Of a stretch of DNA of 64,000 bases, positions 16,697-53,973 are shown piece by piece. Numbering within the stretch: the stretch's first letter is position 1; each line of letters starts with the position of its first letter. The position numbers were made by a program, and so were the translations under genes. The DNA comes from Ceratodon purpureus (taxonomy: Eukaryota > Streptophyta > Bryopsida > Pseudoditrichales > Ditrichaceae). The notes under the pieces were generated by a model that made no database searches, was not told the DNA's origin, and was given only the letters and a program-made list of their open reading frames with translations. The DNA is taken from NCBI GenBank assembly GCA_014871385.1, contig CM026427.1, forward strand, positions 5,154,988 through 5,218,987, in the 5' to 3' direction.

Positions 16697-17215
16697 CTAG
16701 AGTTGTCCGCAATCCTTGATCATGACTGGCTTCTTCGTGGTGCCGCTGGAGGAACCGTACTTCTCAATCTCCTGCACCACGTCCATGCCCTGCACGACCT
16801 GACCGAAAACGCAGTGCTTGCCATCCAACCATGGGGTTGCGACGGTGCACAAAAAGAACTGCGATCCATTGGTGTTGGGACCGGCGTTAGCCATGGACAG
16901 CACTCCGGGTCCGGTGTGCTTCCTGATGAAGTTCTCATCGGCGAACTTCTCTCCGTAAATCGACTCACCTCCAGTGCCGTTGCCCCTGGTGAAGTCTCCT
17001 CCCTGGCACATGAACTGCGGGATCACACGGTGGAACTTGGACTCCTTGAAGTGAAGGGGCTTCCCGGACTTCCCCTTGCCCTTCTCTCCGGTGCACAGAC
17101 ACCGGAAGTTCTCTGCGGTCTTCGGGGTCGTATCGGCATACAACTCCATCACAATACGGCCGGCATTGTTACCACCGATGGTGATGTCAAAGAAAACCTT
17201 GGGGTTGGGTGCCAT
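16697..17215 (-). CDS. Cyclophilin, cytosolic single-domain peptidyl-prolyl isomerase
   Basis: 172 residues beginning [15 protein letters not shown], one complete cyclophilin-type PPIase domain with an uninterrupted coding frame. The catalytic and cyclosporin-binding landmarks are visible: [16 protein letters not shown] (Arg and Phe of the active site, Gln, Met), [20 protein letters not shown], the tryptophan in [12 protein letters not shown], and the C-terminal DCGQL. The seven-residue plant insert KGKSGKPL is present, which marks the plant cytosolic CYP18-1/ROC group. These enzymes isomerise Xaa-Pro bonds and assist folding. An in-frame ATG seven codons upstream (17236) is less likely, because an acceptor (GTACAG at 17230-17225) places it in a leader intron. 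No targeting signal is seen. Confidence 0.95.
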
Positions 17216-17224
17216 TGCGAAAGT

Positions 17225-17845
17225 CTGTACACTCATAACACATCAAAAAATATATCAGTCCCTGGATCCACTACAAGTAGCAGAAGTTACGTTCACATTT
17301 CCAATAAACTCTCATCGCGCTAACTACATATCAAAACTCCAGATAGCGAAAAACAAGGAGAGAAAGAAAACAATTAAAAAAAATCACATGCACAACACTA
17401 ACATCAAACATGCACACAAACTCACAGAAACATGCACACAAACTCACAGAAACATGCACACAAACTTACAGTAACATCTTCACTCTCTCCAACTCAAAGA
17501 TGGAAGTACGATAAAAAAAAACGCAAGAAAAAATGTAGAAAACACTACAAACAACGCTCCCTCTATTTTTCCACAACTACCACAACACACCACCCCTCTA
17601 AAAAGAACTACAGATGCCATAAAAACCAAAACCGCATGCCTCTCGACCACCTGCACATATTCTCTCATAACCTAATCAAACAAAAAAACTCACAGCTACA
17701 TAAAAACCTCAGAAAAGCACAACCCAACCATGCACCTCATCTGCAAAAGAAATCAGCACACCACACAGACCAGTCCCGCAAACTCACCGTAACGAACTCA
17801 TTCAACCCCAGATGCAGAAAAGAAAGAAAGGATAAGAATGCGCAC
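17225..17845 (-). other. Leader intron of the cyclophilin gene
   Basis: On the minus strand a donor CCAG|GTGCGC (exon ending at 17846) and the acceptor GTACAG|ACTTTC (exon starting at 17224) bound a 621-bp intron in the 5' UTR, nine bases before the start codon. Leader introns are frequent in highly expressed plant genes. The intron contains the 22-bp triplicate listed next. Inferred from splice signals only. Confidence 0.6.
17406..17471. repeat. Three 22-bp tandem units in the leader intron
   Basis: Three abutting copies of AAACATGCACACAAACTCAC + AG. The third has one change (CTTACAG). On the transcribed minus strand these are GT-rich (CTGTGAGTTTGTGTGCATGT), so each copy presents a donor-like GTGAGT. 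Confidence 0.85.
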
Positions 17846-22811: not shown

Positions 22812-25633
22812 CTACACAATGTAATCGGGTGACATGTTCCGGCGAGGGTTCATGCTGTCAACAGCGCAAGAGACGGAAGCCATGTCGTCGTCCTCATCAC
22901 AAGTAAGCCACTGGGCAGCAGCGGGATTCCGGAGCATCAACTTCGAGCTCAGATAACCGGCTATCGACCACGTTTGATACAGCCGCGCTTGCTTTCCAAT
23001 GAAGCGGCCTGATTTGGTGTCGTAGTATTCAGGCCACCAGTCTCGGGAAAGCCGTTTCTCAGCAATTGCTACTGCTCTCTCGGCCATATCCGCACGACCC
23101 ATCTTGATACAAGCCACCGTGAACTGCCACAGAAGCACCGGCCAGGAACCTCCATTGTGATACGACCAAGTTCTGCACAGCCACGGGGGTCTCATCGATT
23201 AGCTTTCCTTTTGTTGTAGGGCTTCAATAGATCTAGTATCATTAGTAGCTACGTCTGGATAGTTATTCTCCAGTTATGATTTAGATCTAACCTGTACTCT
23301 TGCCATTGGAATAACAATTCCCCCTGATTCAATAATCATCATCCAAGAGTTTCTATACAAGCCCATTCAGTGAATGACACAATAGGACATCCACAAAAGA
23401 TAACATTTTAAGTTCGTAGAGATCTTACGTATTTTTGGGGTCGGCGCCAGTAATGATGCGCCATTCATCATCAGAAAGGGCAGGGTAGCAGATTTTGAGC
23501 GGCATCATCCCTATGAGATCCTCCCACTTCATTTCTATGAGCGTTAGAATATCTTCAGCCTGCTCCTTGGTTGCCAGAGCACCATTTATTGACCATAAGT
23601 TGCCCAAAGTGAACCATCGGAAATCCATATGCGCGGGTTGCAAGTTGCCTATAAAATACCCTCCCTTTTCAGGAAGCCAGTCCAGCAACCACTGGGATAT
23701 TTGGTCCGGGTAAATGTTGAACTTATTGACTGCGTCGCTAGAGTACTCCTCCGTTCTATATCTGTAGATTTCGTTTAACTTGCGAATATCTAGCCAATAG
23801 TACTCTTGGATGTGGAACGACAAAGCAGCTAGTCTGGAGTTGATCGACCGTATCAAATCCTGTGCATCTGAATCGAGCATTTCCTTGGCACATCGCAAAG
23901 CGTGATAAAACAGGGCCTGCAGGATGCAAAGTCAAAATTAGTTCACAAATCTGGACAGGGCGTCTATGCTGTACTTGACAAGTGATTCAGACCAATCTGG
24001 AGAGAATCTGGGGATGAAACTAGATCAGAGAAAAGGGAAAACGAAAAACCAAGACTGAGCACAGAATAATGAATAAGATAGTAACCAGCATTGGACATGA
24101 AAACCAGAGCAGTTAATGATCCGCATATAGAAATGAGTAACATTTTTTTTAAAATTCAGCTTTTTATATTGAATAGTACAAAAGCGAGGAAACAGATATG
24201 AAAACCTGAATTTCAAGAGGATGTCCGTGTATGCCCATGCGCCGGTCAACCATCATGGATCCGTCCGTCACCAGCAAGGTTGGGAACATGTCGAAGCCAT
24301 CGGCTAAACACACCTTCAAAATCATCTTAATGCCAGTCTGCACATCCATCCTTTCCTGCATTCTAAGATCTCCCGTACACTTGCCGTAAGCTCTCAGAAG
24401 TATGATCCACCAAAGCCCTGCCAAAACAACAGCATCGTACAATACGAGACATTGTTACCTGGCATAAAGTGTGTTGCAATACTGATAAAATAATCTGCAT
24501 CTAGGCAGATGCAACAAAAGCTGACAGGAATGTCACAAGCATGAAAGATTACCCACCGACACGGAACGTGAACTCACCAGAATCTACTGGGGCAACTCGC
24601 CCAATAGCTGCCTCGCCAAAATCTGGATGCAAAAGCTCTTCCTTGCCCTTCACTCCTTGGCCATCCAAATACACTGTCTGTACCTTGAAACTTGCAGGCA
24701 TCAAACCCTGCCCAGGGGTATAACAATCCACAGTCTTCTCCCAGCTCTGTCATACATCAATCAAACCTTAGAAAGCTAAACACACTTTTACACCTAGGTC
24801 AAATCAAAATCCCATGTAGATATCTCAGTTCCAGGTACTACACATATGCAAAGCATCTGCATCGCTGAACAAACCTATACCCTAATCGACAGAAGCTCAT
24901 TGTAACAAATTTAGGTTAATCAGGAGCCCCCTGAAAGTAATCCAAGACGGCAACAAAAGAGTTCCAATGCCAGCACCTGCAGTTGCAGCGTGTGGTGAAT
25001 GAAGTTGCGAACAATGTCATACTCCCCCTTGAGCAGAAACGCAATCGCAGAAGGGATAAAGTCCCGGATGAAGACTTGATCATAGTTCAAAGGGTACGGG
25101 TCGGTCGGGTCATTGGCAGCGATGGTCCCCACAGGCTGCCCACAATAGTTCACCACAGCCTCTCTCAACAACGCCCAAGCTTCCTTCTCCATGGGACTCT
25201 CCAGCGGCTCCGACGACCCATTGTTGGAGATGGCGTCCGCCAGCTCCGGTCGCTGCGACAACTCCTCCATCAACTCATCCCCCTTCCGCTTCGTCGTCTT
25301 GGTGCCCACATAGATCGCCTCCTCAGGACTCGCGCCGATCAACGCGGACGCCACTGCCTTGTCGTGCAGCACCTTCCGCCCCTGCAGAGCCCCATACCCG
25401 AACACTCCTCCTGAATCACCCGCACTCTCGCACCTCACACATGTCCCACTTCGAGATCGTCTCCGAACCGCCACCCCACGTGAAGCACCCGCCTTCAAAG
25501 AAGAAAACACACTACCCGTTGATCTCCCACAGGATACCACCACTCCTCGCTCCTGCGTGCTCGCTGCAGCAACGGACCGACCCAAGGCGGCACATTGGCA
25601 GCTTGACGCTGCCAACGACTCCACCAGATTCAT
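22812..25633 (-). CDS. Alkaline/neutral invertase (GH100), probably plastid-targeted
   Basis: Five exons on the minus strand: 25633-24977, 24746-24578, 24417-24206, 23916-23429 and 23172-22812. All are GT-AG and phases match, giving 628 residues. GH100 landmarks in order: [15 protein letters not shown] and [13 protein letters not shown], then [14 protein letters not shown] with [82 protein letters not shown] and [12 protein letters not shown]. The enzyme hydrolyses sucrose to glucose and fructose near neutral pH. The first roughly 90 residues are Ser/Ala/Arg-rich and poor in acidic residues, fitting a transit peptide; plastid or mitochondrial location is an inference. I chose the ATG at 25633 ([11 protein letters not shown]). 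The open frame extends upstream only with a GTG. The frame is complete with no broken motif. Confidence 0.93.
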
Positions 25634-28098: not shown

Positions 28099-28606
28099 GC
28101 TTCAAGATATTTGAACTATGGAAGTACGGCATAGCAATAACAGAGAAACCCTCCTCGGCCTTTCAGTTTTAGATACAAGAGAAACCGGCATGGCGACAAA
28201 ACACCAAGACTAGATTTAATAAACCATACAATCTTCCGAAATTCTACATTGCAACCAAATCACCTCCAGTTACCACCTAAAATAATACAAAACTAAAAGT
28301 AGATAATAAAAGCTTCAACCACCAGACCATAACCGAATGGAAGCCAAATGCATCCCCCCGAAAGGACACTGTCCTTCCCAAAAACTCCACAGCACTGCAA
28401 GTGCACCGCAAGTGCAAGTGCACCTCACCCTTCCCATCATACCACCGGATGCGCAATCCCAAACAAACAACCAACAACTTATGAACGCAACACACAAAAT
28501 CCACCTTTGAGTTCTCAGGGACAGGGTTAGAGACAGAGAGAGGGACAATTGGTTTCCTTTTCTAGAGCAGATAGAGCTCAAGGAACGTGATTGCACCAGC
28601 CCAGTC

Positions 28607-31600
28607 ATGGCGGGGAGTGAGCAGCTTCAGGCCATCCGCTACCGCCGTGGCCACCTTGAGCTCTTGGATCAGGTGAGATTGTTTGGAAAATTCTGCAATG
28701 TTTTTGGGATTTTTTGGGATTTTTTGGGGTGGCATTTTTTTTTTTATGATTTTGCGGGTTTTGGGTTTATGATGGGTTTGTAGAGTTTTGGGTTTTTGGG
28801 GTTTGAGTTGAGGAGTTTGGGTCTGATTGGTAATTGTGTGTTGGTTTTGGCAGCGGAAGCTCCCGCATGAAACTACCTACATTGATATCAAGGATGCGGC
28901 AGCAGGCTGGTGAGTGGAGTTTAAGACTTTGTTTGTTTTGGGTTTCTAGGGTGATTTTTTGACGTTGGTTATCGATGTGGGGATTTGGAACTGGAATGAG
29001 AAATGTATGGTGATGTGATCAATCCAGGACCGCAATCCAGGACATGGTTGTGCGTGGTGCGCCTGCCATTGCAATAGCTGCTGCTCTTGCTCTTGCCGTG
29101 GAGGTTGAAAGGTTGAAGCCCGTCTCTGGAAATGGGCTAGCGGCTGTCAATTTCTTGAAGAATCGTCTCGACTATCTTGTCTCAAGGTTTGTTGCTTCGT
29201 TTCTGGGGTTTACCTTCCAGCTTCCTGATATGTCAATTTTGGAAGTTTTTGTGCAATGTATCTCACTTTTATCAGATAATATGCTAACATGTCGGAATAA
29301 TTGCAACATGGTGGGGTATCAGTCGTCCAACAGCAGTCAATCTTGCCGATGCCGCCACAACTTTGCTTAAGCTTTCTCAAAAGGCAGCAGATGAGGGCGC
29401 CGATGCAGCAGCAGTTTATGAGGTCAGGGTCTTAACGATGCACTTTAAGGACTCTTCACTGGACATGTATGGAGAGTTGGGGCTTGGAATTATTCTGTTG
29501 TGAAACCTCTAAAGGCCTCAGTAGAATCTTCGCTTGCTGAAGGTTTAATTGCTTTGTGATTGATTGCAGACTTACCTTGAAGGGGCAGAGAAGATGCTGG
29601 ATGCCGATGTTGCGTCCAACAAGGCAATTGGTGCTTTTGGTGCAGATGCTTTGTTACAAGGATCGACTGCTTCAGGCAATGGCATGCGTGTTCTGACTCA
29701 CTGTAATACCGGCAGTTTGGCTACGTCGGCATATGGGACGGCTCTTGGAGTAATTCGTGCACTCCATGCTCAAGGGAAACTTGAAACGGCCATATGCACA
29801 GAGACCCGTCCTTACAATCAGGTGCCCATCACATCAATTTCTATGATCATTTTCCTTGTGAGTGCTTAGTAGTGTAATGCTTGACTATCTCCAACTACGT
29901 GTATTCAAATATTGGGAAACATAGTTTGAGTTCTTTGTTAAACCTGCATTTATGTCATATTTTGAGAAGAATACTGACGTGTAATGCGACATTCCCGTTT
30001 CTTATCTTTTACCACACCTTTTGTTGCAGGGATCAAGATTAACAGCTTTCGAGTTGGTTCACGACAAGATACCTGCTGTTTTAGTGGCCGATTCTGCAGC
30101 TGCATCTATGAAATCCTTAGGTCGAGTTGATGCGGTTGTAGTCGGTGCAGACCGCATTGCAGCCAACGGTGACACTGCTAACAAGATAGGCACGTACAGT
30201 CTGGCAATATCAGCATTCCATCACGGCGTACCATTCTATGTGGCAGCACCATTGACATCAATCGATACCGCAATCAAGTCTGGGGAGGAGATCATCATTG
30301 AGCAAAGGTCACCGAAAGAGCTTACTCACGCACATGGTGGACAGGGGACGCAGATTGCTGCAAATGGTGTGGGTGTTTGGAATCCTGCATTCGATGTCAC
30401 CCCAGCTCGGCTTATTACTGGTATTATAACAGATCAGGTATATAATCACCTATGTCTTTGCGAGCGATTTTAACACGTCTTTTTATTTATTTAGTTTGTT
30501 TGCTTATTTGTATTACATGGGAAGTTTGTTTTGTCATCTTTAATCTTCTTGTTGGTGTTGACAGGGAGTCATCACCAAAGCCGCGAACTCCGATGTCTTC
30601 GACATTCCTGCTTTTATTGCAGAATCCAAAGAGGGTTGTCCACCAAGTACGAAGGATTCAAACGGCATGGCAGCGCCTAGAAGTCCTCAAGCTGGGAGTG
30701 CAGCGAAGGATGGGGATATTCATGCCAGTTTCAAACCCTTGGATGAGACACTGGTGGCAGGCTATGTTGAGTCTCAACCTGGTCTGGTAACGATTCTGGG
30801 TGGAACGAGTGCAGATTGGAATGTGAAGGAAGTTGGGGACGGGAACTTGAACTTTGTTTACATCTTGACAGGTCCAAAGGGCTCCTTCGTTTTGAAACAG
30901 GTGAGGATCTCGTGAAAGCAGGTCATGCACTTTAATGACATCCCTTTCCATGTTGGAGTTGAATTTGGTTTGTTTTCGAGTTTATCTAAGGTTGGTTTTA
31001 TCGTAGTGCTTGACAGGCTCTGCCATATGTGCGCTGTGTTGGTGAATCTTGGCCAATGACACTGGAGCGTGCATACTTTGAAACCACTGTGTTACGAGAA
31101 CATGGGCGACTGGCATCACATTTGGTGCCAGTGGTCTACCACTTCGACCACCCGATGGCATTAACTGTCATGGAATATCTGGCTCCACCTCACATAATCT
31201 TGAGAAAGGGCTTGATTGCCGGGACAGTGTACCCTCTTTTAGCTCAACATATGGCAGAGTTCATGGCGTCAACTCTCTTCCATACTTCCTTGCTTGCTCT
31301 CTCCACTATGAAACACCGGAAAGAGGGTATGTATCTCATGAATCTCAATCTTGGTTTACTAAATAATCGTTAGATGTTCTTTGCAGTTCAAAGGTCTACA
31401 TTCAGTAATTTTACTATGTATGCTGCATCATCTCGTGAACTAGTCCTGATGATCTGAGGCCAATTGCTGGTTGCAGTGGCACATTTTTGTGGCAATATAG
31501 AAATGTGTCGACTAACAGAACAAGTTATCTTCACGGAGCCCTACATGGATGCTGCGAACAATAGGTGGAGTTCACCTCACCTTGATACTGATGTCCAAGC

Positions 31601-32517
31601 CTTGCGTGAAGATTCAGCCATAAAACTTGAGATTGCTGGTCTGAAATCGAAGTAAGAACCACCTCCTGATCTTAACCATGTGTAATCCTAAACTTGGCAT
31701 TTCTGCCTTGCGATATCCTTCATTTATCCGGTGTGTGTGTGTCTTCTGATCTGTAAACATTCGTTTTTTGATGTCAGGTTTTGTGAGAGAACACAAGCAT
31801 TGTTGCATGGAGATCTGCATTCAGGATCCATTATGGTTACTCAGAATTCCACAAAAATCATTGATCCTGAATTCGGCTTCTACGGCCCCATGGGCTTCGA
31901 TCTGGGGGCTTTTCTCGGCAATCTGATTCTCGCCTACATTTCTCAAGATGGCCATGCGACATCTCAAGATGATCGAGAGGTATGATGAGAAACAGATTAT
32001 TTGGTTATTATCTGGTTTGGTGCTGGAACGTTTAAGCTACTCTATTTTGAGAACATGCTATTTTGTCTTTTAGTTTAAGGTGAAGTGGACTATGCCTGCT
32101 TGTATGTATTGGCTGAGGCAAGTGTTTGCATTTCAGGGGTACAAGCTATGGTTGCTGAAAACGATAGGTGACACATGGCAACTTTTCTCGGAGAAGTTTC
32201 TGGTTCATTGGGATCAAAACTGGGGTTCTGGAGACGCATACAAGAAGGAAGTGTATAACACTAAGGACCTCCAATTGCTTGTCCAGAAATCATTCATGAG
32301 TGAGCTGTTCCAGGATACTCTTGGCTACGCTGCAGCCAAAATGATCCGGAGAATAGTTGGTATTGCTCACGTGGAAGATATGGAATCTATTTCCGATGTG
32401 GAGAAGAAAGTCACATGTGAGCGCCGAGCCTTAACCTTCGCTAAGCATCTTCTGAAAGAAAGGTCAAAATACTCAGATATTAGGCAGGTTTGTAACGCTT
32501 TGCAGGGTAGTCGATAA
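28607..32517 (+). CDS. Methylthioribose-1-phosphate isomerase fused to methylthioribose kinase
   Basis: Eleven exons: 28607-28672, 28854-28909, 29028-29186, 29323-29422, 29570-29821, 30030-30437, 30565-30900, 31017-31326, 31477-31651, 31778-31979 and 32137-32517. All are GT-AG with matching phases, one frame of 814 residues. Residues 1 to about 371 are a complete MtnA/MTI1: [25 protein letters not shown] (catalytic Cys about 172), [13 protein letters not shown] (catalytic Asp about 252), and the C-terminal [17 protein letters not shown]. After a roughly 30-residue Ser/Pro/Lys linker, residues 400-814 are a complete Mtn[41 protein letters not shown]-like [12 protein letters not shown] (Asp about 633), [18 protein letters not shown], and [20 protein letters not shown] phosphorylates methylthioribose and MTI isomerises the product to methylthioribulose-1-phosphate, adjacent steps of methionine salvage. 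In Arabidopsis and rice these are two genes. The exon at 30565-30900 spans both domains with no stop, so the fusion is directly visible. Confidence 0.92.
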
Positions 32518-35176
32518 GAATCGTTAGGTTGGTTGAGATTTCATTCCTTGAGAAGGCACTCGGGGCCGAGTTTGTATAACTAAGGCGTTGACTTTACACT
32601 ACCGTAGCGATTTTAATGTTGTAAAACAACATACTCCTATCCCTTCCGAACGAATCACCATAGAACGGTGCAGAGAAAACGTAACAGAAGAGAATTATGG
32701 CTCATGTTTGTCTTCCACCACATTCAAGAATGAACTACATTCCTGCAAAGTGACCTTGCAATACTACGGTCGCAGAATACTGAAAGGGATCTACATAAAC
32801 CAGGGTATATAAACCAGAGTTAGCTTTCGTCCGTTTGAAACTCTAATTCTGTGAATTCTCTCTACCTGTCTACTTCACTTCTTTCTGCTTCTCTCCTATC
32901 GTATGCAAGTCCAACTATTTTGACTTACATGTAGTAACTCAAAATATTCCATGGCCATTAAACTGAGAGATCCATATAATCATGGTTTAAGAACATTGTT
33001 CAAGATACCAATTCAACAACAGTTCGATTCAGTCTTGCTCTTGTTTCCCACATATCCTCGATTTTACATGACCTCTTCAAGAAGTGCACCTTTGAACTCG
33101 TCCGGAAACTGATCATTTGCGCCCATATATTGCTTTCTTTCCGCTCCTGCCAGATGTAAAACACCACAATGAGTAGAATCTCCTTGCACTCGTTGTGCTC
33201 TGTAGTGTCAAAAGATATCTTCTTAACTTAAATTATTGTTAGGAAATCAATAACAGAAACTACACAAAGCATCACAGTTCTAAGATACACGAACATGAAG
33301 TATGCATGTAGAATGATCCAAAATTCATTGACTGAACTCCATGGTTCTTCAGCTAGAAGGTGCAATAGCATTCTGTTATGTGCACCAAATATAATTTTGG
33401 CCCATTCCCAAATTCATCACCTCAACTAATCTAATTGTCTTTGAATTCTCTAAAAAGGACATTCGGTTGATTGAGGTACAAAATGAGCAACTAGAAGACC
33501 TATCATGTCAAAAAGGAAACAAAGACAGCCCGGTCTAAAGGTCCAATGTGAATCTGATAAGTATGAATCTATGATCAAATGACAATTATATTACTCGATC
33601 TCTTGAAACAACTCGCCATACGTTATCCCTGGAGCGTTCTGTATCTTTCTGAAGTGGTCCACACCCTCGTGCAAGCAAAAATCTTCAGAAACACGATACA
33701 CGATAAAAATGTACACAAGACTGGTCAAACAAGTCTTGCTCAGTACATCCATTTCAAACTGACAAAGTACAAGATTCTCCGGAAACCATAAAACACCTGC
33801 AGATGAATAATAAGAAGCACAGCCAACGCCTACAAACCATAGATCAACTGAAATAAAAACCTGGAGCAGCTGTAGCAGGGGCAGTGCTTTCAATCTAGCT
33901 TGACACATTTGCGAGCAAACCTGTGACATACATGTATGCATCCTAATCGATCTGTGTATCTGGCGATCCAAATGCGCGCGCACAAATACACACAAAGAGT
34001 AACAGCAACAGACTTCAGGCTTCAGGTCCAACGATCAGAAAATCAGAACTGCAAATGCTGTTGCAATATCACCGTCGTATCACTACAGCTGCACTTCGAT
34101 CAAAGCCAACAACCATCGAATTCCCGTCCGAGAATATGATAGAAATCCAAGCACCAAACCGAAATCACACAACTACTCGTGCAGAAACTTCAACCGAGGT
34201 GCAGCACTTACATCGCAATCTCAAATATTCCTATCAACGCACCTTGAAGTAAGTTCCCTTGCACCTCGCTTCACTGTGGCCGTTTTGACTACTCTTCATA
34301 AATTTCTCATGTATAGTGAGAAACATGCATCTCCTATTCTCAGGAGTTGTGCTGATCTTCATCCAATCAATTATTTGATGGCTTGGGATTCTGATCCTGT
34401 CGGTGTTTATTGCAGCACGGCTGCTGCAGTTACAGTGCGCAGCACAATCAGGCGATTGAGGGAGGCAACCGAGGTTTAGATGGTGTCGATCTTATAGAGT
34501 CACTTGAAACCTGTTTTGTAATTGAGATGCACGGCGGCAGTGTTTGCCTCTTAAATGTGACACAAGCTCTGTTCGAGCCTTCTTTCTCTTCGTGCGTTGT
34601 CTCGTTTCAATGATTTGAGTCATCTGAGTTGTTATCTGAGTTTCAATGTTGTCATCTGAGTTGTCTCGTTTCAATGTTGAGTCATCGGAGTTGTTACTTC
34701 TGTCGCAAGTTTCGTACAAAATTCTAAAAATAGAAAAGTGCATATTTGTGGGCCCCATACATATTTTACAGTATTTGGGATGCGTCTTTTACTTTTTCCG
34801 CGTGTCTGGAAAAGTATATATATATTTTCCGTTGATGGGGCTCTCCATATTCCAATGATCTCTATCTAAAGATTCATCTCTAGTAATCCACTGTTCCTTC
34901 ATTTTTTGCTGTTATCTCACTGTCAGTCTTGATGGTGGATAGCATCCCTTGCTGTTGATTGACACTTCATGCCTCGGTTACAGATTGCATAGTTACTGTG
35001 ATTACTTGCAAAAACACCATTCTCATTTGCTGTAATTCCACTCTGACAGAGTTTCCTCAGCTGAATTGTCTCTGTGCCGATCAGTCCATAATCTCTCCCT
35101 TGTGCATTCTACTGCCTTGGTGCATACTCTCCTGGTATTCTCTCTTCCTACAGAGCAGTTTCTGTGATCTTCAGCA
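32518..35176. other. Mostly non-coding; one weak minus-strand exon candidate
   Basis: 3' UTR of the fusion gene, then AT-rich DNA. On the minus strand 33695-33591 reads as a plausible terminal exon (HEGVDHFRKIQNAPGITYG then GELFQEIE and stop) but no partner exons were found, so it is not called as a gene. Around 34612-34697 there is a loose repeat of GTCATCTGAGTTGT and TTTCAATG. The end of the stretch (about 34950-35176) is probably leader of the following gene. Confidence 0.35.
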
Positions 35177-36076
35177 ATGGAACCCCCAGAATATGCATGC
35201 CAAGTAAAGACTTGTGCATGTGGCTCATCAAACGTCCAATTCAAGTATTTGAACAACAAAAATCCAAATCAACCGAGATACAAGTGTCTTGAATGTAAAG
35301 AACTATTTTCCTTTGTAGACCACAAGCGACCGAAACCTCGACATTACCAAAAGAAGAAGGGATTAGACCCTGAGGAGCTGCGGTATCTCCCTAGACATTG
35401 TCCAAAATGTGATGATGATAAGGGGATTTTCAAGTATTATAACAATGAAAAGGTGGTTGGAAAGAGACAACCCCGATTCTATTGCCCCCCTTGTAAGAAA
35501 CAATTCTCTATGCGATACGATGGTGTGGCCCTTTATCCAAGCACTTCTAACCAAAGGCAAAGGACAACATATTCCAACATTGAAGAACAAGTCAAGGAAG
35601 CTGCATTTGATCCAATGCTGGTGCAATACTCGAATGATAGTGAGTTACAATCTCAAATGGATAACATGGCGGGGGAATACTCGAATGATAGTGAGTTACA
35701 ATCTCAAATGGATAATGAACCAGAGCTGTTTCCAAATTGGACCATTGCGGAATTGCAACGTCTCATAGATGAGGGAACAATGCCTGTACCAATGCTGGAT
35801 GAGGTGCAAAACTATAACAATGGTGAGCAACCTCAAAATTTATATGAATCAATGGGTGAAGCAAAGCTGGACCTGCAAAACTATAGCAATGGTGAGCAAC
35901 CTCAAATGGATGGGGAATCAGATAGGGAATCAGCTGGGGATACAGACCCTTATACCAAAGAGATAGAAGATCTTCTAAGTTTCCATGAGTTTGAAGACGA
36001 TGGTGAGCTCTTTCAAAATCTGCCAGACTTTGGAAACACACTGTTATCCCATTTCATGGAAGGTGTAGTCCCATAA
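35177..36076 (+). CDS. Protein with two tandem Dof-like zinc fingers
   Basis: An intronless 299-residue protein. Two cysteine-rich units follow each other: residues about 7-40 (CACGSSNVQFKYLNNKNP then NQPRYKCLECKELF) and about 74-112 (CPKCDDDKGIFKYYNNEK then QPRFYCPPCKKQF). Both resemble the plant Dof finger: Cys pair, K.YNN, QPR aromatic, Cys pair. Finger 1 has the Dof spacing of 21 residues between the pairs, but its first pair is CxC rather than CxxC. Finger 2 has CxxC pairs with a 24-residue spacer. A basic linker joins them. The C-terminal 150 residues are acidic and Gln/Asn-rich, with two in-frame duplications (17 residues with YSNDSELQSQMDN, and NYxNGEQPQ), and could act as an activation region. 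A DNA-binding regulator is the likely role. A transposase-type zinc ribbon is the main alternative. Confidence 0.6.
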   Translation: MEPPEYACQVKTCACGSSNVQFKYLNNKNPNQPRYKCLECKELFSFVDHKRPKPRHYQKKKGLDPEELRYLPRHCPKCDDDKGIFKYYNNEKVVGKRQPRFYCPPCKKQFSMRYDGVALYPSTSNQRQRTTYSNIEEQVKEAAFDPMLVQYSNDSELQSQMDNMAGEYSNDSELQSQMDNEPELFPNWTIAELQRLIDEGTMPVPMLDEVQNYNNGEQPQNLYESMGEAKLDLQNYSNGEQPQMDGESDRESAGDTDPYTKEIEDLLSFHEFEDDGELFQNLPDFGNTLLSHFMEGVVP

Positions 36077-51429: not shown

Positions 51430-53973
51430 GAAAGTACCGAACAGAGGTCCGATGTACCTATTCTGCAGAAGACCTTTATGTGAGTGTTAAGGCCGTACTT
51501 GTTGGATGCCGAAGTCATATGAAGCCTATGAGCAAGCCGAGCCTGGTTGCAGAACCTAAGGATGTCTTTGATCAGAAGGCAAGTAACAAGTACTGGATTG
51601 ATGTGCAGTTAAGGTGGGGTGATTGCGATTCTCATGATATCGAGCGGTATACCCGAGCAAAACTCTTGGATTATACTACCGACAATATGTCTATCTACCC
51701 AGCTCCGACCGGGGTGATGATTGGGCTGGATTTAGCCTATACTCTGCATGCTGCGTTTGGCAACTGGTTCCCCGGCTCCACACCGCTTTTTCCACAGGCT
51801 ATTAACAAGACCATGAAGGCTAATCCAGCTCCGTATGTGATGAGGGAGCGTGTGAGGAAAGGACTGCAGCTCTATTCATCGGAGCCTACCGAGCCCTATC
51901 TGTCTTCTCAGAATTATGGAGAGCTATTCAGCAACCACATTATCTGGTTTCCTGATGACACAGACGTGTATCGAGTGACCATACAGAAGACATTTGAAGG
52001 GAATTTGACCACAAAGCCCAGCAATGGTGCTATTTTCATCTTCAACCACAGAACTGCTCACCTTCTCTTAGAGGTCATTCATACCAGCGTGTGGGCTGGA
52101 CAGAAACGCTTGGGACAGTTCGCCAAGTGGAAGAGTGGTGAAGAACTACCTGCTTTGGTACGTTCCCTCCCAGTTGAGGAACAGCCCAAACAGATCATTG
52201 TGACACGAAAGGGAATGCTTGATCCTCGGGAGGTTCATCTTCTCGATTTTCCCAATATCATCATCAAGGGTAGGGAATTCCAGTTGGCAGTCCAAGCTTG
52301 CCTGAAGATCGAAAAATTTGGTGATTTGATTCTTAAGCAACAGAGCCACGAATGGTTTTATTCAACATCCACGACGATTGGCTGAAGACTATCTCATCAT
52401 ACGCGGCGTTCTCCAGGCTCATTCTGATTCTTACGGCTCTTCATGTCAACAATGAGAAGGCTAAGATGTTGTTGAAGCCTGACAAAACACTGGTCACAGA
52501 GGCGCACCACAGTTGGCCCAATTTGAGCGATGATCAGTGGATGAAGGTCGAGGTTGCGCTGAGGGATCTGATATTGTCTGATTATGCGAAGAAAAACAAT
52601 GTGAATACATCTGCATTAACACAGTCAGAGATTAGGGATATTATCCTTGCTGCTGAAATTACTCCTCCATCGCAACAACGGCAGCAGATAGCAGAGATTG
52701 AGAAGCTCGTGGGCATATGTTTCAGTGATTATGTATTCATTGTTTCATGGTATTTCCTCTTTTCAGGAAATGTCAAATTCTGATGAAATTTTTCCTGGTC
52801 CTTAACTTGGTTGGTGCATGGTCGACACTACGAGGACTCCCCTAATATCCTATTCGTCATGTATTGAATTTGCAGGCAAAGGAGGGCAGTCGATTGACTG
52901 CAGTCACGACCAAGACAACGAACGTCCACGGAGACGATCTGATTGTCACAACAACGAGTCATTATGAGCAAGCAGCATTCGGTTCTAAAACAGATTGGCG
53001 AGTGAGAGCTATCTCTGCCACCAATCTCCATCTTCGTGTGGACCACCTTTATGTCAATTCAGACGATATGAAGGTATGGACTTCAGGCGTAGCAATGTGG
53101 TTGACTCGTCTTCACTGAATCCAAATTTGTATTTTAAATTAGATTCACTTTTCTGTACTCTCGCTGAAGCTTAATTGCTATGAAACAGAGTGCTTATTGT
53201 TGTTTGTTTGGTTTAGAGGACTCTGGTTACACTTACATTATGCCAAAGAACGTCCTACAGAAGTTTATTTCTATTGCCGACCTGAGGACTGAAATTGCTG
53301 GATACTTGTACGGTGTTAGTGCTCCTGATAGTCCTCAGGTTAAGGAGATTCGGTGCATACTAATGCCTGCACAGTGGGGCACACATCAGCAGGTTCATCT
53401 TCCTGCTGGGCTACCTGAGGAAGAATTCTTGAATGAGCTGGAGCCTCTTGCTTAGCTTCATACCCAACCGAATGAGCTCCCACAGCTCTCACCTCAGGAC
53501 GTGACAAGTCATGCCCGTATCCTGGAGAATAACAAGCAGTGGGATGGTGAAAAGTGCGTTATTTTTACCTGCAGTTTTACCCCTGCCTCTTGCTCGTTGA
53601 CCGCCTACAAGCTGACGCCAACTGGGTACGAATGGGGACGAGCTAACAAGGATAGTGGCAGCAACCCCCATGGTTACTTGCCTGAAACACTATGAGAAAG
53701 TTCAGATGCTTTCGAGTGACCGGTTCCATCGGTTGTACATGGTTAGTTACCTCACCTCGGTGCCTCTATTGACTGTGTTTATCTGCCATGTCTTGCAGTC
53801 CGGTTTGACTCACACTGTCAGGAATCTTTTCAAGAACCCAGATGTTTTGCATTGAAGTGGATGCTAATATTTCTGTTCTATTTCGTGTTGATCAGGTTCC
53901 AGATAATGGTCCATGGAACTACAATTTCATAGGAGTAAGAGACTCTGTGGGAATGAAGTAAGGAATCAAGCTT
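51430..53973 (+). pseudogene. C-terminal part of PRP8, broken copy
   Basis: The sequence encodes the last quarter of the U5 snRNP protein PRP8, in order: [66 protein letters not shown] (RNase H-like domain); [39 protein letters not shown]; and the Jab1/MPN domain ([39 protein letters not shown]). It is broken. A two-base insertion follows ATG at 51480. One G is lost in AAG(G)CAACAGAG near 52335, so the frame runs into a stop at 52385. The codon pair GGT TGG has become GCT TAG at about 53452. The frame is shifted again near 53685 and stops at 53958. Homology ends abruptly near 53973, about 40 residues before the normal C-terminus. Introns are retained (52863 and 53215 acceptors), so this is a DNA copy. 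The remaining three quarters of the protein are absent. Confidence 0.9.

Follow-up and report, generated by a model that had tools for sequence, protein, structure and literature searches.

The closest described counterpart of the gene reported here is MtnAK of Tetrahymena, a fusion of methylthioribose-1-phosphate isomerase (MtnA) and methylthioribose kinase (MtnK) that Salim et al. described in 2009 with ESTs covering either end of a single cDNA clone (PMC2759508) and that a 2018 review restates (PMC6302742). The 2009 paper also names three green algae with this fusion, Ostreococcus tauri, Micromonas pusilla, and Micromonas sp. RCC299, along with the diatom Phaeodactylum tricornutum, and it regards MtnAK as the phylogenetically more interesting of two Tetrahymena fusions (PMC2759508). 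As for the domain order of Tetrahymena MtnAK, the residue ranges in section 7 of that paper place MtnA first and MtnK second, whereas one earlier sentence says the opposite; the order used here is that of section 7 (PMC2759508). Other fusions of methionine salvage are DEP1/MtnBC, which joins MtnB and MtnC in plants, and MtnBD of Tetrahymena (PMC2759508), both of which connect other steps of the pathway than MtnA-MtnK. According to two further sources, the plant route of methionine salvage runs from a nucleosidase to a kinase and an isomerase and then to DEP1 (PMC8137854, PMC3698126).

We analyzed a stretch of 64,000 nucleotides of the Ceratodon purpureus genome (hereafter, the window), which carries a gene with MtnA at its N-terminal end and MtnK at its C-terminal end in one frame, the arrangement by which we define the fusion after Salim et al. 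(2009). Like MtnAK of Tetrahymena thermophila (XP_001031773, 779 aa), its predicted product is one protein of similar length with MtnA followed by MtnK (PMC2759508), but it is encoded by a plant genome and measures 814 aa, whereas T. thermophila is a ciliate with reassigned stop codons (PMC3698126). The same two domains are joined in Ostreococcus, Micromonas, and Phaeodactylum, which, in contrast to the plant, are unicellular algae; the source leaves the domain order of their fusions unstated (PMC2759508). The ciliate precedent mentioned in the initial annotation of this DNA is the published Tetrahymena case; with green algae, a diatom, and a ciliate already on record for this kind of fusion, the plant is a new host of a known arrangement (PMC2759508). 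In the literature covered, largely that outside subscription papers, no title or beginning of an abstract pointed to an MtnAK in a bryophyte, a fern, or another land plant. The MtnA-MtnK fusion is now placed in a plant genome, with introns and at a single known locus.

Structure of the fusion gene and conservation of its two halves

The gene and its parts, all on the forward strand of the window, are as follows.

28607..32517, + strand: MtnA-MtnK fusion gene from start to stop codon, 11 exons, 814 aa, based on splicing and two full-length family matches
28607..30579, + strand: isomerase half (MtnA/MTI1), exons 1-6 and the first codons of exon 7, aa 1-352
30565..30900, + strand: joining exon 7, 336 bases, phase 0 in and phase 0 out, stop-free over its full length only in the coding frame
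30580..30729, + strand: interdomain linker, aa 353-402, within exon 7, no in-frame stop
30667..30669, + strand: in-frame ATG in the linker, aa 382, with G at -3 and +4
30730..32502, + strand: kinase half (MtnK/MTK), remainder of exon 7 and exons 8-11, aa 403-810
32515..32517, + strand: stop codon TAA

In the spliced model (28607-32517), all 10 introns are GT-AG and the frame of 2445 nt corresponds to 814 aa plus the stop; the 11-exon gene and the coordinates proposed for it in the initial annotation proved exact. The open stretch upstream of the start at 28607 begins at 28511 and contains no in-frame ATG. When the whole protein was searched against its own genome, the rows for exons 2, 7, 8, and 9 showed stops within the match, which, judged by their coordinates, lie in adjoining intron bases covered by the matches; for exon 7, the stop in question, a TGA, occupies 30559-30561, directly ahead of the open stretch, which begins at 30562.

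An NCBIfam search of the protein located the MtnA domain at aa 8-352 and the MtnK domain at aa 403-810, in a single frame. The equivalog model TIGR00512 matched aa 8-352 over profile positions 1-335 of 335 with 450.5 bits (curated cut-off, 279 bits), and the equivalog model TIGR01767 matched aa 403-810 over positions 1-400 of 401 with 476.6 bits (curated cut-off, 275 bits). The succession of a full MtnA and a full MtnK, as first read from the letters of the sequence, thus holds, both halves matching their family models essentially from end to end. On this sequence evidence, a chance origin of the fused frame is excluded, because two full-length family matches, far over their cut-offs, share one frame. 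For the isomerase half, NF004326 also matched over its own cut-off, and the narrower MtnA equivalog models NF004700 and NF004436 matched below theirs.

The closest solved chain for the isomerase half is PDB 4ldq (56.8% identity over 340 aligned positions), which we take to be the human isomerase, and for the kinase half it is PDB 2pyw (60.7% identity over 410 positions), presumably the Arabidopsis kinase (MTK). The angiosperm MTI1 and MTK are encoded by separate genes and, unlike the two halves of the fused plant gene, are stand-alone proteins. We also considered whether this half could be an eIF2B subunit. This candidate was rejected: MtnA-named solved chains reached up to 370.2 bits against at most 52.6 bits for chains of eIF2B subunit alpha, and the family search assigns the half to MtnA, countering the eIF2B reading. 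Three solved chains bearing the depositor name initiation factor 2B (2a0u, 1t5o, and 3a11) scored 317.7, 219.2, and 119.7 bits against the isomerase half, and we assume them to be misnamed members of the isomerase side.

The four landmark motifs claimed at the outset are all present, with THCNTG at aa 170-175, GADR within aa 248-267, HGDLH within aa 630-641, and IDPE from aa 649. Ten motif stretches were compared with 43 bacterial MtnA and 50 bacterial MtnK proteins. In the isomerase half, two residues that are invariant in 43/43 bacterial MtnA, Cys in THCNTG and Asp in GAD, are kept, and the positions both invariant in bacteria and kept in the plant comprise the THCNTG Cys, three positions of GADR (G, D, and R), and GD..NK.GTY. 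In the kinase half, the H, D, and H of HGDLH and the D and E of IDPE, invariant in all 50 bacterial MtnK, are kept, as are the bacterial invariant positions of GN.N.V, KQ..P, H.D.H, and D.EF. We take the Cys in THCNTG and the Asp in GAD(R) to be catalytic in MtnA, and the roles of the HGDLH and IDPE motifs in MtnK are likewise assumed here.

The joining exon, copy number, and the predicted product

We propose that the gene very probably encodes MtnAK as a single bifunctional enzyme that serves methionine salvage (the Yang cycle). According to this model, a nucleosidase would release 5-methylthioribose from methylthioadenosine, the C-terminal kinase would phosphorylate 5-methylthioribose to methylthioribose-1-phosphate, and the N-terminal isomerase would turn the latter into methylthioribulose-1-phosphate, the substrate for the downstream DEP1. 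Both halves are predicted to be active and the gene is expected to be transcribed as one unit. The fusion would secure the coexpression of both activities, in a fixed 1:1 amount and in a shared place, and it may shorten the path of the intermediate. The isomerase is N-terminal although it acts second, in agreement with the earlier remark that the domain order is the reverse of the reaction order; this order is uninformative about channelling, and substrate channelling is possible.

Exon 7 contains the end of MtnA, then a linker of about 50 residues, and then the start of MtnK. The initial annotation had made its reading depend on the lack of a stop in the joining exon 30565-30900, and the coding frame is indeed open throughout. 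The openness of the linker alone (~45 codons) would not be significant, because by a hand estimate a random stretch of this kind would be open in about 11% of cases, and in the right frame in about 4%; over the linker region alone, one of the two noncoding frames is also open. GC content is 31-43% in the introns, 50% in the linker, and 49% in the coding sequence. Third-position GC is 36% in the linker versus 46% in the whole coding sequence, which we counted against the single-protein reading, as we did the possible production of a separate kinase from the linker ATG. This ATG at 30667 may mark where a once separate kinase began, or it may act as an alternative start.

Two working proteins could be drawn from the one frame: an internal promoter would provide for a kinase that begins with the ATG at 30667, transcripts that terminate in or after intron 6 would provide the isomerase, and the fusion protein would be minor or absent. 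The G at -3 and +4 of this in-frame ATG speaks for such an arrangement, but an isomerase-only transcript that includes exon 7 needs an in-frame stop that the exon does not offer, and we consider the arrangement improbable. Neither AATAAA, ATTAAA, nor AATAAT occurs in exon 7 or in either of its flanking introns (6 and 7), a point against it that says little, because none of these hexamers is found in the 283 bases after the stop codon either. That an assembly or model error has joined two separate genes is hardly credible: a single assembly is the basis of the gene, but neither half is damaged, the transition falls within one 336-base exon whose two ends carry conserved sequence of the one and of the other enzyme, and the genome searches yielded no further copy of either that could be the source of a misjoin. 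A single bifunctional MtnAK remains our preferred reading of the product.

The copies of both enzymes were searched for in the plant's own genome, a 362-Mb assembly of 151 contigs, exon by exon, which limits the sensitivity of these searches. The MtnK model gave five exon matches, all at the fusion locus, and the MtnA model gave the fusion locus as its best match (218.7 bits, one exon) and four other places at 44-65 bits. Of the 17 places returned by the whole-protein search, 11 are the exons of the fusion locus, four are eIF2B-like, and two have E ~0.7. Neither a second MtnK locus nor a typical second MtnA locus was found in the 362-Mb genome by family and protein searches, which answers the question raised in the initial annotation whether separate MTK or MTI1 genes also exist there. 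The fusion gene is, within the reach of an exon-by-exon search, probably the sole source of both enzymes, because the family and whole-protein searches gave elsewhere only the eIF2B-like places and those with E ~0.7.

The four eIF2B-like places were considered as second MtnA genes and rejected. A solved-structure search assigned L008 (contig 5) and L010 (contig 1) to eIF2B alpha and L011 to eIF2B delta, and the fourth, L009, appears to be a divergent eIF2B-like protein in which LSASGT stands roughly at the position of the MtnA motif THCNTG. Among solved chains, L009 is closest to one named probable methylthioribose-1-phosphate isomerase, though at only 1e-8, and we regard L009 as unlikely to be a divergent isomerase. 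L009 is a single-frame protein of 378 aa of the eIF2B/MtnA superfamily (contig 2, 25024659-25025531). As a side observation, eIF2B subunit alpha may be duplicated in this genome, since two loci, L008 and L010, resemble it.

Bacterial loci and the origin of the fusion

Fifty bacterial mtnK loci were fetched, all of which carry MtnK and 43 of which have mtnA in the flank. In 20 of these 43 loci, mtnA follows mtnK in the same orientation, in 22 the two genes are divergent, and in 1 mtnA comes first; in none of them (0/43) do the two share one frame. The bacterial pairs are neighbors as separate genes, in contrast to the single frame of the plant, and the plant order MtnA-MtnK is not the one that prevails among these bacterial loci. 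A broader survey covered 400, 398, and 398 genomes from the phyla of three centers (loci titled Anaerolineales, Hyphomicrobiales, and Paenibacillus), whose genomes are also the source of loci L030, L022, and L024. It detected 68 MtnK matches that exceed the cut-off, spread over 66 of 1196 genomes, with 10, 37, and 21 matches in 9, 37, and 20 genomes of the respective sets, sub-cut-off matches being left out of set one and sets two and three consisting only of matches with E <= 1e-40. The longest open frames at the matches were 512, 489, and 493 aa per set, and no frame long enough for an MtnA-MtnK fusion occurred at any of the 68 matches from the 1196 genomes. A ready-made bacterial fusion as the source of the plant gene is, therefore, not indicated in the sets examined, because the longest bacterial frame is 512 aa and none of the 43 pairs is in one frame. 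Among plasmids, 127 records matched, in two pieces that in themselves fit fused or adjacent genes alike, and among the best 10 of 127, 3 are annotated with separate mtnK and mtnA genes. Two scans of viral contigs, one without a pattern match and the other with five pattern matches, yielded no eukaryotic relative.

The fusion had at first been considered an independent event; this view is unsupported, since the unicellular algae Ostreococcus, Micromonas, and Phaeodactylum have been described with the same arrangement (PMC2759508). With the fusion on record in green algae and a diatom, common inheritance is no less likely than independent fusion (PMC2759508). By parsimony on the published presence, descent from a fused green-lineage ancestor appears more likely than an independent fusion, and it is the origin that we favor with some confidence. 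The rival account of the origin holds that the same protein arose by an independent fusion in the plant's own lineage, through loss of the stop and of the intergenic DNA between tandem genes, and we judge it rather unlikely. It draws on the separate genes of angiosperms, with 2pyw as a stand-alone kinase of 420 residues, and on the linker ATG, whose good context would suit a former kinase start. The ATG is weak evidence, however, and the presence of the same fusion in green algae stands against this account, so that one old fusion explains more (PMC2759508).

If shared with the algae, the fusion would be usable as a phylogenetic marker. An ancestral fusion of the green lineage that was later separated in angiosperms is the simpler account. 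We would give about even chances to the more specific proposal that a fused MtnAK was ancestral in green plants and was kept in algae and here, the MTI1 and MTK of angiosperms having arisen by gene fission. Such a fission, if true, would be a rare case in which the splitting of a bifunctional metabolic enzyme can be dated, and it may have come about by way of an internal start like the linker ATG. Tracing the fusion in charophytes, bryophytes, lycophytes, and ferns could tell an old fusion split in seed plants from repeated fusion, and the gene provides a plant system for asking whether the joining of kinase and isomerase alters the flux of the Yang cycle.

Methionine salvage genes in the genome and other features of the window

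Beyond the fusion gene, an exon on contig 2 matched solved chains named 5'-methylthioadenosine nucleosidase (3.4e-19); it was missed by the default PF01048 search and recovered only at a relaxed limit. An enolase-phosphatase match over the cut-off, along with its neighbor in frame, represents part of the expected DEP1. Methylthioadenosine phosphorylase gave no match in the search of the plant's own genome, a negative result of weak sensitivity because the same kind of search (default PF01048) missed the nucleosidase. The genome content fits the plant route from nucleosidase to kinase, isomerase, and DEP1 (PMC8137854, PMC3698126). Two places on contig 7, 16777536-16777685 and 16778899-16779009 (L074 and L075), showed weak matches to the nucleoside-phosphorylase family, with E 0.043 and 2.2, and are perhaps exons of a second nucleosidase-like gene.

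Ten frames of the window were scanned for families, of which five are without a family match. The following features were recognized around the fusion gene.

16700-17242, - strand: cyclophilin-type peptidyl-prolyl isomerase in an uninterrupted frame (PF00160 positions 2-158 of 159, 166.8 bits)
23428-23931, - strand: part of an alkaline/neutral invertase gene (PF12899, 259.7 bits)
35168-36073, + strand: Dof zinc-finger frame (PF02701, 55.9 bits, in two stretches, the best covering only positions 4-38 of 59)
51432-52382, + strand: frame with a partial match to the PRP8 domain IV core (PF12134 positions 1-152 of 230, 236.9 bits)
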